Notes under the pieces: model-generated
Databases searched by the model: none
Seen by the model: the letters and a program-made list of their open reading frames with translations, nothing else
What the model was told of the DNA's origin: nothing
Position numbers and translations under genes: made by a program
Shown: positions 5,777 to 12,998 of the stretch, in pieces
Layout: each line of letters begins with the position of its first letter
Position numbering within the stretch: the first letter of the stretch is position 1
Source: an uncultured Pelagibacteraceae bacterium
GTDB lineage: Bacteria > Pseudomonadota > Alphaproteobacteria > Pelagibacterales > Pelagibacteraceae
Assembly: GCA_902514755.1 (NCBI GenBank)
Contig: CABXRY010000012.1
Span: 1-32,466, forward strand
Length of the DNA stretch: 32,466 nt
Reading direction: 5' to 3'

Positions 5777-6394
5777 ATGACAAAAAGATTAAACTCTAAA
5801 CATAAAGTAGATAGAAGATTAAAGGTTAACCTATGGGGAAGACCAAAAAGTCCATTTAATACTAGAGCTTACGGACCAGGACAACACGGACAATCAAGAC
5901 AAGGTAAATCATCAGACTATGGAATTCAGTTACAAGCTAAGCAAAAATTAAAAGCTTACTATGGAAATATTAATGAGAGACAATTTAGAAATATTTATAA
6001 AAAAGCAGTTATGCTTAAAGGTGATACTGGTGAGAATTTAATTGGATTACTTGAGAGAAGATTAGATGCGGTCATTTATAGAGCAAAGTTTGCAACTACA
6101 ATTTTTTCTGCAAGACAATTAATCAATCATAACCATGTAAGAGTAAATGGTAAAAAAGTTAACATTGGAAGTTATTTAGTTAAAGAAGAAGATACGATTG
6201 AAATTAGAGATAAGTCAAAACAACTCGCAATCATTGATATCGCTTTAGCTAATAAAGAAAGAGAAGCTCCGGAATACATTCAAATGGACGAGAAAAATAA
6301 AAAATTTAAGTTCGTGAGAACGCCTAAATTTGAGGAAGTTCCATATCCAATCGTAATGGAACCAAATCTAGTAATTGAATATTATTCTAGATAA
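5777..6394 (+). CDS. rpsD: 30S ribosomal protein S4
   Basis: [26 protein letters not shown]...[10 protein letters not shown]...[42 protein letters not shown] (S4 domain). Confidence 0.98.
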
Positions 6395-6399
6395 AAATT

Positions 6400-7011
6400 T
6401 TGATCAGAAGATCTTCAAAAAAATCGATAGATAAACTATTAAAAAACAATACATCTTGGAAAATTTTAGATGTTGGATGTGGTTATAATGCACATAAAAA
6501 TGCTACTGTTATTTGTGATGTTCAAGACTTATCAAATATATATAAAGAAAAACATTTTGTTAAATTAACTAGTAAAATTTTACCATTTAAAGATAAAGAG
6601 TTTGATTTTGTAATTGCTTCGCATGTAATTGAACATGTTAAAGAAGTTGAATTTTTCATCAAAGAGTTACAAAGAGTTTCATCTAAAGGTTATATAGAAC
6701 TACCAACTATACTTGAAGATAATTTAGTATTTGAAAATAAGAAGGATCATCTTTGGCATATGGAGTTTGATGATGATAAAAATCAATTAATTATTTCAAA
6801 AAAGATTCAATTTTTAGAACCTGTTTTAACTGTTTCATCTATAAAAAAGTTTTTAAAGTATTTTAGACAGAGTTTGGTGCTTGAATTATTTTGGGAAAAT
6901 TCAATAGAATTTGAAATTATACTAAAAAATCATGATAACTATCAAAAATTATCAAGATTATCTTTGATGAGAAAATTCTTTTCTAAATTAATTAGAAATT
7001 TAATTAGATAG
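6400..7011 (+). CDS. class I SAM-dependent methyltransferase (Methyltransf_11-like)
   Basis: ILDVGCGYNAHKNATVICDVQDL, LPFKDKEFDFVIASHVIEHV; TTG start 5 nt after the rpsD stop. Confidence 0.75.
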   Translation: MIRRSSKKSIDKLLKNNTSWKILDVGCGYNAHKNATVICDVQDLSNIYKEKHFVKLTSKILPFKDKEFDFVIASHVIEHVKEVEFFIKELQRVSSKGYIELPTILEDNLVFENKKDHLWHMEFDDDKNQLIISKKIQFLEPVLTVSSIKKFLKYFRQSLVLELFWENSIEFEIILKNHDNYQKLSRLSLMRKFFSKLIRNLIR

Positions 7012-7215
7012 TATCTCTCTTTCGGGTTTTTTTGCTAAATTAAAATTACTGTTACTATAAATATCGTCACATATTTTTTGGGGAAATAATTCATTAAATT
7101 CTAATCTTTTTTCAGGTTGAAATGAAGAAACTTCGATTGAATACCCAATAGTATTTAAGAACAATAATGAATAAAAAAAAGTTACGAAATAAATCTTTTT
7201 AGGTAGCTTATACAT
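7000..7215 (-). CDS. small exported hypothetical protein
   Basis: 71 aa with an N-terminal hydrophobic signal-like segment (KKIYFVTFFYSLLFLNTIGYS); tail overlaps the convergent methyltransferase by 12 bp. Confidence 0.4.
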   Translation of the reverse strand: MYKLPKKIYFVTFFYSLLFLNTIGYSIEVSSFQPEKRLEFNELFPQKICDDIYSNSNFNLAKKPEREILSN

Positions 7216-7219
7216 ACTA

Positions 7220-7555
7220 CTATGAAGAAAATATAACCCTATTTCTATGAAACCATTTAGTTATAACTTCTCTAAGATTATTACAATTATAATATTTTTT
7301 TCTTTTATCCTTTTTATCTACTTCTTTTGATAAATAATCTTTATTTACACCATCTATCAAAATAGATTGAATAGTAGTTCTACTCGCAACATTTGTTAAA
7401 TTTTTACATAAATCTTCAAATGTAATTTTTCTATTTCCAAAAATATTAAAAACTATTATTGAATGAATTTTAGTTTTGAAAATGTAGGACATCTCACCCT
7501 TGGTGTTTGAATTATTTATTAAATCTTCTGAAATTTGTAAAAATTTTGAGTTCAT
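7220..7555 (-). CDS. putative winged-helix (MarR-like) transcriptional regulator
   Basis: Compact 111 aa; ITFEDLCKNLTNVASRTTIQSILIDGVNKDYLSKEVDKKDKRKKYYNC resembles the recognition helix plus wing of MarR-like wHTH proteins. Confidence 0.5.
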   Translation of the reverse strand: MNSKFLQISEDLINNSNTKGEMSYIFKTKIHSIIVFNIFGNRKITFEDLCKNLTNVASRTTIQSILIDGVNKDYLSKEVDKKDKRKKYYNCNNLREVITKWFHRNRVIFSS

Positions 7556-7780
7556 AACAAATTTAATTATTTAAATTTATTACTATTTATTGATAGTTTT
7601 ACAGTGATAATATGTCACTTTAGATATGCATTAAGATCAAAGCTTAAATCTTTATAAAATAGAGCTTAATAAACTAAAACTTATAAAGTTTTATTTATTA
7701 TCAAATTTTGATACTAAATTTTTATAACAAATTTAAATAATTTTTTATTCACTTATTTCTAATATGTAGTTCGTGGATAA

Positions 7781-10237
7781 ATGAAAAAAATTTTACACAA
7801 AATAAATAAATTTTCCTTAAGTTTTTTAGCTTTTATATTATTTCTTAATACTAGTGTTGCTAATGGTACTACTGTAACTTTTAGTCATACTGGAGCTCAA
7901 CAAACATGGACAGTTCCCTCAGGAGTTACCAGTATAACAGTTGAGGGTTATGGAGCGGCAGGAGGTGATGGCGAGAGAAGCGGTTCAACTAAAAGTAATG
8001 GTGGTTTAGGTGGTTATTTAAAAGCAACTATTTCTGTAACACCAGGAGACACTTTAATTATAAATGTAGGTGGAGTAGGTGAAAGTGGTGCTGATATTGC
8101 AAATGCAGTTAGTGCTGGTGGATTTAATGGAGGAGGTGACGCAGCAAATTCTTTTAGTACTAATCGAAATGGTGGAGGTGGAGGTGGTGCCACTGACATA
8201 AGAACAAGTACAAATTTAAGTGATAGAATTTTTGTTGTTGGAGCCGGTGGCGGCGGCGGCGGTGGTTCGGTATCTGGAACAAACTCTAATGGTGGTGCTG
8301 GTGGTGGAACTTCAGGTGAAAATGGTACTGATGGTGAAGGAAGTAGACCGGGTATAGGTGGAGGTGGAGGTTCACAAGCATCAGGAGGCACTAGGGGAAC
8401 TGGTAATACTAATGATAATGAACATGGAATTGCAGGAGCACTTGGTCTTGGTGGTGATGAAAGTATAAGTGGTGGAGATGCAAATTGTAAAGAGGGTAAT
8501 GGAGGAGGTGGTGCTGGTTATTATGGTGGTGGCTCTGGTGGATGTGGACATGGTACTGCAACTGGTGGTGGAGGAGGAGGAGGATCTTCCTTTACAACTG
8601 GAACAATTATTACAAATACACAAGGTCATTCATCTGCAACTGGAAATGGATCTTTACAAATTGAATATACAGCTAATGTTTTACCAACTTTAAGCTCATC
8701 TGTGCCAGCTGATAATGCGACAGACGTTGCAAGGGATGCAAATATAGTTTTAAACTTTAGCGAAATAGTTGATGTTGAAACTGGAAATATTACAATAAAA
8801 AAAACCTCAGATGATAGTACTTTTGAGACAATTGATGTTACAAGTTCAAATGTAACAGGCACAGGAACTACCCAAATAACTATAAATCCAACCTCTAATT
8901 TTGATGCAGAAATTGAATATTATATATTAATTGACGCAACAGCTTTTGATGATGTTCTTAGTGGATCATACGCTGGGATAAGTTCAACAACCGCATTAAG
9001 TTTTACAACTGAAAGTATGGTTGATCCAACTACTGTTAAAGATGTAGTAGGTTCAATTGATGTACAATCTCAGTTAGCAAAAAGTTTTATTACTCAATCC
9101 ACTAGCACGGTTTCAAGTAGATTAAGTTATTTAAGACAAAATAAAGATAGTCAAAATTTATCCAAAAATAATCTTAAATTAGATTTTGGAAATGCTATAC
9201 TAATATCACTCACAAATGAGCTTTTAGTTAAAAATGATAAATCAATCATCCCTGATAATTGGTCTTCATGGTCTGAAGGGTCATTAAGTTCTTCCAAAAT
9301 TGGAGATAATTTAGGCTCATCTTCAAGTGAGACAGATGCTCAAGCTCTTGCATTTGGTTTTGATACAAAATTAAATGATAGTGATTTACTTGGATTTGCT
9401 ATTCAGTATGGCAAAAGTGATACGGATATTGGATCCAGTGGAAGTACAACTGATAGTGAAAATATAAATATATCAATTTATCGAACAAGACCTTTAGATG
9501 ACGATAATTTTATTGAAGGAATGTTTGGGGTTGGATTAATTGAAAGTGATTTAACAAGGATAAGTGGCTCTAATACACTAACAGGATCTAGAAATGGTTC
9601 ACAAATATTTGGTTCAATTAATTATGGTAAGACAATTGACAAAGGGGACTTTAATTTAACGCCTATTGGTCGTATTGATTTAGGATACACTGAACTAGAT
9701 GCTTATTCAGAGACTGGAACGGATGCTTTATCTTACGCTAAACAAACTATTGAAAGTGGATTAGCGTCTTTTGGACTAGAATTTAGCGATATTGTTAAAT
9801 TTAATGACAATAAATTAAAGCCATTTGGATCAATAGAGTATGGTATGGACTTTAGTAATTCATCAAACGCTAAGATGAATTATGTCTCGGATACAACTAC
9901 AATTTTTACCTATAGCCAAGGAGCAAATTCAAATCATCTAGTAACATTGATGGTTGGCTTTGAATATATTACAAAAGATAATTTAGAAATAATATCAAGT
10001 TATAAACGAATTCAAGGAAACGAGAGTGAACAAACTGATATTTTAAATGTATCTGTTAATTTTAAATCTAAACGTGAGACCGAATATGCTATGAGCGTTG
10101 ATGGGTCTGAAGATTTAAAAGCTGGATTTGATATTTCTAAAAATGTAAATGGATTTGATATAAAGTTTAATGCTAACCAATCATTAAGCGAAAACTCTGA
10201 TCAGACAGCTAATGTATCTTTATCAAGATCGTTTTAA
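7781..10237 (+). CDS. glycine-rich surface protein: signal peptide, Gly-rich domain, SbsA/Big_5-type Ig-like domain, probable autotransporter beta-barrel
   Basis: Signal-like N-terminus (SLSFLAFILFLNTSVANG); long GG-rich segment (GGGGGGATDIR, GAGGGGGGGS); LSSSVPADNATDVARDANIVLNFSEIVDVETGNITIKK typical of Ig-like SbsA domains; C-terminal ~300 aa of alternating amphipathic strands ending in aromatic F (VSLSRSF), an OMP-type terminus. Confidence 0.8.
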   Translation: MKKILHKINKFSLSFLAFILFLNTSVANGTTVTFSHTGAQQTWTVPSGVTSITVEGYGAAGGDGERSGSTKSNGGLGGYLKATISVTPGDTLIINVGGVGESGADIANAVSAGGFNGGGDAANSFSTNRNGGGGGGATDIRTSTNLSDRIFVVGAGGGGGGGSVSGTNSNGGAGGGTSGENGTDGEGSRPGIGGGGGSQASGGTRGTGNTNDNEHGIAGALGLGGDESISGGDANCKEGNGGGGAGYYGGGSGGCGHGTATGGGGGGGSSFTTGTIITNTQGHSSATGNGSLQIEYTANVLPTLSSSVPADNATDVARDANIVLNFSEIVDVETGNITIKKTSDDSTFETIDVTSSNVTGTGTTQITINPTSNFDAEIEYYILIDATAFDDVLSGSYAGISSTTALSFTTESMVDPTTVKDVVGSIDVQSQLAKSFITQSTSTVSSRLSYLRQNKDSQNLSKNNLKLDFGNAILISLTNELLVKNDKSIIPDNWSSWSEGSLSSSKIGDNLGSSSSETDAQALAFGFDTKLNDSDLLGFAIQYGKSDTDIGSSGSTTDSENINISIYRTRPLDDDNFIEGMFGVGLIESDLTRISGSNTLTGSRNGSQIFGSINYGKTIDKGDFNLTPIGRIDLGYTELDAYSETGTDALSYAKQTIESGLASFGLEFSDIVKFNDNKLKPFGSIEYGMDFSNSSNAKMNYVSDTTTIFTYSQGANSNHLVTLMVGFEYITKDNLEIISSYKRIQGNESEQTDILNVSVNFKSKRETEYAMSVDGSEDLKAGFDISKNVNGFDIKFNANQSLSENSDQTANVSLSRSF

Positions 10238-10576
10238 TTAGTTTTTAGCTTTAAAACTTATTCCTTTAGTTTCAAGTAGTTTTGCTAGTTCACCAGTTTC
10301 ATACATTTCTTTTACGATATCACAACCACCAACAAATTCTTTTTGGATATAAAGTTGAGGGATAGTAGGCCAGTCACTAAAGGCTTTAATACCTTCTCTA
10401 ATATTTTGATCCTCTAAAACGTTTACGCTATGAAAATTTACCTCAAGAAGTTTGAGCATATTTGTTACAGCCATTGAAAATCCGCACTGAGGAGCGTCAG
10501 GCGTTCCTTTCATAAACAAACATATTTCATTTGTATCTATATGATTTTGAATTGTATTTTTTGTATTCTCGTCCAT
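10238..10576 (-). CDS. grxD: monothiol glutaredoxin, Grx4 family
   Basis: FMKGTPDAPQCGFSMAV (CGFS active site), WPTIPQLYIQKEFVGGCDIVKEMYETGEL. Confidence 0.95.
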   Translation of the reverse strand: MDENTKNTIQNHIDTNEICLFMKGTPDAPQCGFSMAVTNMLKLLEVNFHSVNVLEDQNIREGIKAFSDWPTIPQLYIQKEFVGGCDIVKEMYETGELAKLLETKGISFKAKN

Positions 10577-10806
10577 TACAGCTCCTTTGTTTTAATTGCT
10601 AAGGCATGTAATTCATTGCCCATTTTACCTTTTAAAGAATTATAAACCATTTTGTGTTGTTCAATTTTACTTTTACCCGAGAATTGAGATGAAGTTACAG
10701 TAGCTGAATAATGATTTCCATCACCAGCTAAGTCTTGAATTTCAACAGAAGCATCTGTTAATGCTTCTTTAATTAAACTCTCAATTTCTTTTAAATCCAT
10801 TGCCAT
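10576..10806 (-). CDS. BolA family protein
   Basis: Short alpha/beta protein with SKIEQHKMVYNSLKGKMGNELHALAIKT, BolA signature; adjacent to grxD. Confidence 0.93.
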   Translation of the reverse strand: MAMDLKEIESLIKEALTDASVEIQDLAGDGNHYSATVTSSQFSGKSKIEQHKMVYNSLKGKMGNELHALAIKTKEL

Positions 10807-12998
10807 TATTTGCTCATATAATTAGTTAACCAACTTGTATTCGAAGTTCTTAATACGTCAATTGTAACTTTTGTCTTATCATTAATATACAGTTGATTTT
10901 CATTAATCGAACCAAGTTCATCAAAGTGGACTGCATTTTTATTAAGTAAATCAGTCACTTTTTTTAGATTTTTTTTAGTAATTTCAATTATATATCGACC
11001 CTGGTCTTCAGCGAAGAAGTATTCAATTTCATTAATTAAAAATTTAGGTTTTTTAAGATTGATACCTTTATTTCCTTTGATGCACATTTTGCTGACAGCA
11101 GTTATTATTCCACCAATTGATACGTCATGAGCACTTTTAATTAAACCACTATCCATTAATTTTAAGAGGGTTTCACCATTATTTTTTTCATTAAATAAAT
11201 TTATTTCTGGTGGTGGACCATTTTTTTCATCTAAAATATTTCTTGCAAATAAACTTTGATCAATATGACCTTCTGTTTTACCGATAACTAAAACAATATT
11301 ATCAACTTCTTTAAAGTCCATGGTAATCATTTTATTGTAATCTTTGATTAATCCAACACCGCCAATAGATGGAGTAGGTTTAATTCCTTCATTTTTAGTT
11401 TGGTTATAAAAAGATACATTTCCGGAAACGACAGGAAATTTTAAGTATTCAGCAGCTTCACCTATTCCTTGAACACATTCGACAAACTCACCCATATTTT
11501 CCTCATTTTCGGGACTTCCAAAGTTTAAACAATTTGTAATAGCAACTGGTTTAGCTCCAACAGAGATTAAATTTCTAAAGCTTTCGCAAACAACTTGTTT
11601 TCCACCCGTTAAAGGATGTGCCCAACAATAAACAGCAGAACTATCAACTGATGCTGCAACAGCTTTATCAGTTCCATGAACACGAACCACACCAGAGTCC
11701 CCACCTGGTTTTTGAATAGTATCTCCCATAACTGTATGATCATACTGTTGCCAAATCCATTCTTTGCTACAAACATTTGGATGAGATAATACTTTTTTTA
11801 AGACATCAATTATCTTTAAATTTTTAAGATCTTCTTTTTTAATCTTATTTTTTTTAGGAAGTTTTGCTTTTTTCCATTTTCGGTCGTACATTGGTGAGTT
11901 TTCAACTAATGTATTTACTGGAATATCAGCAACTTGTTGATTATCAAAATAAAGTTCAATTTTTTTTGATTTAGTAGTTTTACCAATAACAGCAAAATCT
12001 AAGTTCCATTTATCAAATATTTTTTTAGCTTGTTCTTCTTTCCCACTTTCTAAAACAATCAACATTCTCTCTTGGCTTTCTGAAAGCATGATTTCATATG
12101 GTGTCATCTTTGCTTCTCTACAAGGAACTTTATTTAGATTAATTTCAATTCCAAGATTTCCTTTAGATGCCATTTCAATACTAGATGAAGTAAGTCCAGC
12201 TGCACCCATGTCTTGAATAGCAATAATAGAGTCACCCGCCATTAACTCTAAGCAAGCTTCAAGTAATAATTTTTCAGTAAAAGGATCTCCTACTTGAACT
12301 GTAGGTTTTTTTTCTTCAATTTTTTCATCAAAACTAGCTGATGCCATACTTGCTCCATGAATACCATCACGACCTGTTTTAGATCCCACATAAATTACAG
12401 GTTTATTTAATCCTGCAGCTTTAGAGTAGAAAATCTTATCTTTTTTAACCAATCCTAAAGTCATTGCATTTACTAGGATATTGCCATTATATGAACTATC
12501 AAAGTTAGTTTGACCAGCTACAGTTGGAACTCCCATACAATTTCCATATCCACCAATACCATGAACCACACCTCTTAATAGATTTTTAGTTTTTTTATGT
12601 TGAGGAGAGCCAAAGTGAATAGAATTTAAATTAGCAATAGGTCTAGCTCCCATTGTAAATACATCTCTCATAATACCCCCAACACCCGTTGCAGCACCTT
12701 GATAAGGCTCAATAAAAGATGGGTGATTGTGACTTTCAATTTTAAAAACTATTGCATCATCGTCACCAATATCAACAACACCTGCATTTTCACCAGGTCC
12801 TTGAATTACTTGTTTACCTTTAGTTGGAAGTTTTTTTAAGTGAAGTCTTGATGATTTATAAGAACAGTGTTCATTCCACATTGCAGAGAATATACCTAGT
12901 TCTGTAATATTTGGAGTTCTCTTAAGGAGTTCACAAATTTTGGCATATTCATCTTTTTTAAGACCATGGTCTATAGCTACTAGTTCGTTTACAATCAT
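10806..12998 (-). CDS. purL: phosphoribosylformylglycinamidine synthase, large subunit
   Basis: [62 protein letters not shown]; small PurL form with separate PurQ and PurS. Confidence 0.98.

Follow-up and report, generated by a model that had tools for sequence, protein, structure and literature searches.

The 818-aa protein analyzed here is probably a type Va autotransporter with an interchangeable ligand-binding head, which would be swapped by homologous recombination at its conserved leader and its Big_5 hinge; we give this reading a probability of about 0.72. The gene is located on a Pelagibacteraceae (SAR11) contig, of which the whole stretch of 32,466 nt, hereafter the window, was analyzed. 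SAR11 ranks among the most abundant groups of marine bacteria, and its cells are tiny and streamlined. A variable head may matter for the encounters of these cells with phages, grazers or food particles. At the short, precisely bounded locus described here the putatively exposed head varies, whereas anchor, promoter and adjacent genes are retained, and surface variation of SAR11 thus becomes amenable to direct tests. Moreover, the head fold of the ALK/LTK receptors would be placed on the surface of a free-living bacterium.

Results

The open reading frame and the modules proposed in a preliminary description of this DNA were all recovered. The frame comprises exactly 818 aa plus stop (Table 1), and Pfam assigned to it the ALK-type glycine-rich domain expected at the N-terminus (PF12810 ALK_LTK_GRD, residues 54-285, E 5.8e-25), the expected SbsA/Big_5 Ig-like module (PF13205, residues 302-410, E 3.6e-11) and an autotransporter domain (PF03797, residues 497-737, E 3.9e-36), all exceeding the curated cut-offs. 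The PF12810 match reaches 89.1 bits against a cut-off of 24.5, and the glycine-rich composition of the passenger is not due to chance. Because of its glycine codons, the passenger has a GC content of 45-48% compared to about 30% in the surrounding DNA. The passenger lies N-terminal to the barrel as in classical type Va proteins, and the barrel is C-terminal according to Pfam, i.e. not in the inverse order of type Ve. Pfam found no tyrosine kinase domain in the 818-aa protein, so it does not belong as a whole to the ALK/LTK receptor family. A phmmer search with the full protein against the PDB returned low-complexity matches only. In the source assembly (974 kb, 70% complete), where the gene is found on contig 12, it is the sole carrier of PF03797; judged by this gene, SAR11 SAG-MED49 is the nearest named relative.

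Table 1. Features of the autotransporter locus and its borders (positions in the window).
Feature	Positions	Strand	Basis
rpsD, bounding the variable site on the left	5777-6394	+	junction comparison
Methyltransferase-like gene, alternative cargo of the rpsD-grxD site in other genomes	6400-7011	+	Pfam, junction comparison
Remnant of a gene for a pentameric ligand-gated ion channel, retaining 69 N-terminal residues with 88% identity	7009-7215	-	comparison with intact genes in L002, L130
Divergent 111-aa winged-helix-like protein, weak HTH_27	7220-7555	-	Pfam, locus comparisons
Intergenic/promoter region common to regulator and autotransporter, conserved with SAG-MED49	7556-7780		DNA comparison
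Autotransporter gene, 818 aa (P0001)	7781-10237	+	ORF list, translation, Pfam
Signal-peptide-like N-terminus, residues 1-28 of MKKILHKINKFSLSFLAFILFLNTSVANG...	7781-7864	+	sequence reading; homology comparison with SAG-MED49
Exchanged segment, no DNA homology to the syntenic SAG-MED49 gene (L002 5068-6333)	7848-8669	+	DNA comparison
Exchangeable passenger, ALK/LTK-type glycine-rich domain (PF12810)	7865-8668	+	Pfam, profile, structure model, Foldseek
Big_5 Ig-like hinge, residues 302-410	8684-9010	+	Pfam, DNA of relatives (homology back from its upstream edge)
Linker helix, residues 420-453, expected position in the barrel pore	9038-9139	+	AlphaFold
Outer-membrane beta-barrel, residues 495-818 (PF03797; C-terminal Phe)	9263-10234	+	Pfam, AlphaFold, Foldseek, alignment
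Conserved C-terminal extension (residues ~762-818) past the canonical autotransporter barrel end, predicted with low confidence to form about four strands	10064-10234	+	Pfam, AlphaFold, family alignment
grxD-like glutaredoxin, right border	10238-10576	-	ORF list, Pfam, junction comparison

The beta-barrel-like C-terminus, for which lack of a predicted barrel had been named beforehand as counter-evidence, is borne out not only by the PF03797 match. The AlphaFold model of the anchor, built with 54 aligned rows, predicts the linker helix upstream of the first strand, as in type Va proteins and with an expected placement in the pore, and then a barrel with pLDDT values mostly of 80-97 over residues 495-745 and one dip near 675. 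All best Foldseek matches of the barrel in the PDB are autotransporters, namely EstA (1.8e-14), NalP (5e-11), AaaA, BrkA and EspP. By profile and model, the C-terminus is hence a genuine autotransporter beta-barrel. After the end of the PF03797 match follow about 57-75 strongly conserved residues, with a C-terminal Phe in 50 of the 54 alignment rows. AlphaFold models the extension at low confidence as about four extra strands, and it may either belong to a barrel larger than the 12-stranded one of classical type Va proteins or be an appended element. In L038, L023 and L148, which belong to the family but have distant barrels, only about 21 residues follow the Pfam match.

In the head model, made from four sequences, a beta-sandwich core is predicted confidently (with blocks near 90) and a glycine-rich insert at about residues 133-236 with low confidence. 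Foldseek ranked ALK/LTK ectodomain structures at all positions from 1 to 21 (E 2e-6 to ALK), followed by the fibre of cyanophage Pam3 and the tail tip of mycobacteriophage Bxb1, and the sole sequence match of the head profile in the PDB was human LTK (7nx0, E 1e-5). Heads of this type are rare. PF12810 occurs in 2 of 200 other SAR11 genomes of the genus, both times as part of exoproteins of the two-partner-secretion type, with TPS and ShlB partner domains, and in one of 384 further genomes of the class; a broad alphaproteobacterial origin of the head was therefore rejected. A phage origin was rejected as well: three unrelated phages share with the head only its first ~70 residues (46-49%), and a scan of viral contigs yielded no relative of it.

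The gene occupies an island among housekeeping genes, as had been proposed, with cimA, trmJ and rpsD on the left and grxD followed by purL/Q/S/C/B on the right. The core genes rpsD and grxD are convergent, and the stop codon of the autotransporter gene directly abuts that of grxD. Among 52 distinct rpsD-grxD junctions, a set that is not random and enriched for occupied sites, 21 are empty (0-12 bp between the stop codons), eight carry a methyltransferase gene without autotransporter, three another gene, and 20 one to three autotransporter genes in up to 8.3 kb, the spacing being 0.6-8.3 kb where the site is not empty; when loci were chosen by grxD similarity alone, an autotransporter was present in 3 of 30. 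Arrays of several autotransporter genes in tandem were seen at L131 (G349), L137 (G202), L144 (G212) and L052 (G151); in G349, three consecutive ones lie between rpsD and grxD. Integration associated with a tRNA was ruled out, since the whole window contains no tRNA and no integrase was seen, and so was variation by tandem repeats or slippage, since no tandem repeats were found at 6400-10600.

At this site the Big_5 and barrel anchor is constant while the class of the passenger varies, including glycine-rich, DUF285, Laminin_G_3, F5/8C discoidin, propeller-like, beta-helix-like repeat and two unassigned passengers; domain scans found no catalytic family among them. The window and SAG-MED49 share 86.7% DNA identity over 6979-7847 (regulator, promoter and the signal-peptide region up to 7847) and 85.6% over 8670-10900, from Big_5 onward, whereas the segment in between lacks homology and encodes DUF285 repeats in SAG-MED49. 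A second, independent case is provided by G285 and G138, which share 90.2% DNA identity along 2587 bp that begin with Big_5 and reach into grxD, while their passengers are unrelated (an unassigned domain and a propeller-like one). In the third case, both partners, the window and the one-contig genome G384, carry glycine-rich heads, which are 52% identical compared to 93% for Big_5, 91% for the barrel and mostly 94-99% for the flanking proteins; the window head is no closer to that of G384 than to the heads of the two-partner-secretion proteins (50-53%). All these passenger comparisons are between species. The diversification anticipated in the preliminary description, as opposed to conservation at housekeeping level, is strong and takes the form of passengers being replaced in a syntenic position.

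The synonymous sites tell the same about the head. Between the window and G384, fourfold-site differences amount to 0.67 in the head (95% 0.58-0.76), 0.14 in Big_5, 0.33 in the barrel and 0.15-0.36 in cimA, rpsD, grxD and purL, and the NG86 dS is 1.26 in the head and 0.28-0.59 elsewhere. The head thus has a history that is separate from, and older than, that of its carrier gene, for which recombination appears to be the simplest reading. An assembly chimera was ruled out, because G384 has a glycine-rich autotransporter at the same site within a single 1.46-Mb contig and the reading frame continues across the junctions; chimeric junctions are likewise unlikely in the swap with SAG-MED49, which is a single-cell genome. 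A contig labelled Flavobacteriales (L003, CALSPA010000028.1), probably mis-binned SAR11, encodes an autotransporter whose barrel is 83% identical and whose DUF285 passenger comes without Big_5.

The hinge is better conserved than the barrels: in pairs with barrel identities below 30%, the best Big_5 pair has on average 65% identity and up to 86%. This would fit shared homology where crossovers resolve, while functional constraint could be an alternative cause. In the barrel tree, passenger class requires 9 changes, compared to a minimum of 6 and a mean of 20.2 after shuffling, i.e. it is mostly inherited with the barrel. Hence, swaps between classes are recurrent, not rampant, and occasional at the scale of species.

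Discussion

Our data support the notion of a surface protein whose anchor and head have different fates. The signal peptide would direct the 818-aa protein to Sec export, and the C-terminal barrel would be inserted into the outer membrane by the Bam machinery, as is known for autotransporters, such that the ALK/LTK-like head could be displayed outside on the Big_5 Ig-like stalk. DNA from related cells would enter by homologous recombination, with crossovers in the conserved leader and upstream region and in the Big_5 hinge, and would replace the head by another one, whose fold may be the same or unrelated; anchor, promoter and regulator would be kept. The rpsD-grxD site is a variable one that can be vacant or carry between one and three such autotransporter genes, and their heads, which probably bind ligands or surfaces, might be under diversifying or frequency-dependent selection, possibly by phages, grazers or particle attachment. 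One might tentatively go further and regard the site as a dedicated SAR11 locus for head exchange, in which conserved leader, homogenised Big_5 hinge and barrel accept binding heads of unrelated fold, an ALK/LTK-like receptor head among them, and provide a streamlined genome with standing surface variation under pressure by phages or grazers; we consider this possible, with the odds somewhat against it.

In this regard, it is highly improbable that fast-evolving passengers simply diverged in place beyond recognition, without any exchange. Ordinary vertical divergence would agree with the passenger class usually following the barrel clade, but the DNA boundaries are sharp, with unrelated domains bordered on one side or on both by DNA of 86-90% identity, and the near-saturated synonymous divergence is confined to the head. 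The latter counts against divergence in place, because rapid selection on amino acids leaves synonymous divergence unraised; for the same reason, adaptive amino-acid divergence was ruled out as the sole cause of the passenger difference.

Regarding the role of an exchanged head, the families found at the site have binding folds and none of them is catalytic, which makes recognition or adhesion the main candidate function; adhesion is plausible, and phage reception may be possible. That the head acts instead in nutrient capture, for example by binding polysaccharides for uptake, or as an enzyme, seems rather doubtful. Laminin-G and F5/8C domains are commonly carbohydrate-binding, and their occurrence at the same site in relatives would suit such a function, but besides the lack of catalytic families in the scans there is no neighbouring transporter in the island. 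For a different autotransporter of SAR11, uptake of nutrients or organic carbon has been suggested speculatively (PMC12636525). We also find it unlikely that the head serves chiefly as a receptor, or decoy, for phages, with phage escape driving the exchange. In favour of it, the putatively exposed head is replaced far faster than the anchor and at a variable site, and the literature often ties marine metagenomic islands to phage pressure (PMC3909814). However, no phage is linked to the 818-aa protein, the viral contigs and the three partially matching phages mentioned above offer no full counterpart of the head, and with heads coming from binding-domain families it is no less likely that they have a positive role in binding.

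The protein can be compared with several known systems. With the classical type Va proteins EstA, NalP, EspP and BrkA (PF03797) it shares the C-terminal barrel, the preceding putative pore helix, the putative N-terminal signal peptide and the passenger and the terminal Phe, but as passenger it carries, in place of a beta-helix, an ALK/LTK-like glycine-rich domain mounted on a Big_5 hinge, its barrel has a conserved extension of ~57 residues, and its heads are exchanged between relatives. With the ALK/LTK receptors it has in common the glycine-rich (TG) domain, as supported by profile, LTK match and Foldseek ranks alike, whereas this head sits on a bacterial barrel with neither a kinase nor a cytokine-binding context. 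The SAR11 two-partner-secretion exoproteins (L139, L140) have a glycine-rich domain ~50% identical to the head and an adjacent winged-helix gene 52% identical to that of the window, but they are TpsA proteins of 1500-1700 aa with a TPS domain, a ShlB partner and no barrel of their own. Autotransporters of SAR11 were already reported in 2007 (SAR11_0042/0044/0046 in the hypervariable region HVR1; Wilhelm 2007, PMC2217521). In HVR1, type V autotransporters likewise lie in a variable genome region with an indel between strains, but, compared by site description, HVR1 is a 13-gene region with transporters and pilins and not a precise rpsD/grxD site (PMC2217521). The autotransporter adhesin of coastal Pelagibacteraceae is also variably present, but its gene has 5-9.5 kb and is located beside type IV pilus/T2S genes (ISME J 2025, PMC12636525), while the present gene has 2457 bp and lies between rpsD and grxD. 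In the open-access literature no description of the rpsD-grxD site or of passenger exchange in SAR11 was found, which is not proof of absence. Passenger exchange, the precise insertion site and the divergent regulator go beyond the preliminary description.

The 111-aa protein is probably a local regulator and, as its gene association suggests, a candidate for one dedicated to exposed surface proteins. The gene is present in 12 of 201 genomes, and in the 12 loci examined (eleven of these genomes and G384) a surface-protein gene adjoins it without exception: autotransporters in the window, SAG-MED49, G384 and G153, large two-partner-secretion-type exoproteins in G009, G026, G029, G032, G035 and G111, and porins in G024 and G093. 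The channel gene, of which the window retains a remnant adjoining the methyltransferase gene, is GLIC/ELIC-like (PDB phmmer E 2e-14) and adjoins the autotransporter in relatives. It is intact in L002 (3197-4441, minus strand), in L130 (414-aa ORF between rpsD and the HTH gene) and in L036 (417-aa ORF), and a homologue also neighbours an autotransporter in G035. Finally, the window contains at 22999-31749 genes for a GH13-like glucosyl enzyme, a glycosyltransferase-like protein, a HAD-type phosphatase (Hydrolase_3) and a sugar ABC transporter, a cluster which on reading resembles a compatible-solute (glucosylglycerate-type) or sugar-use locus.
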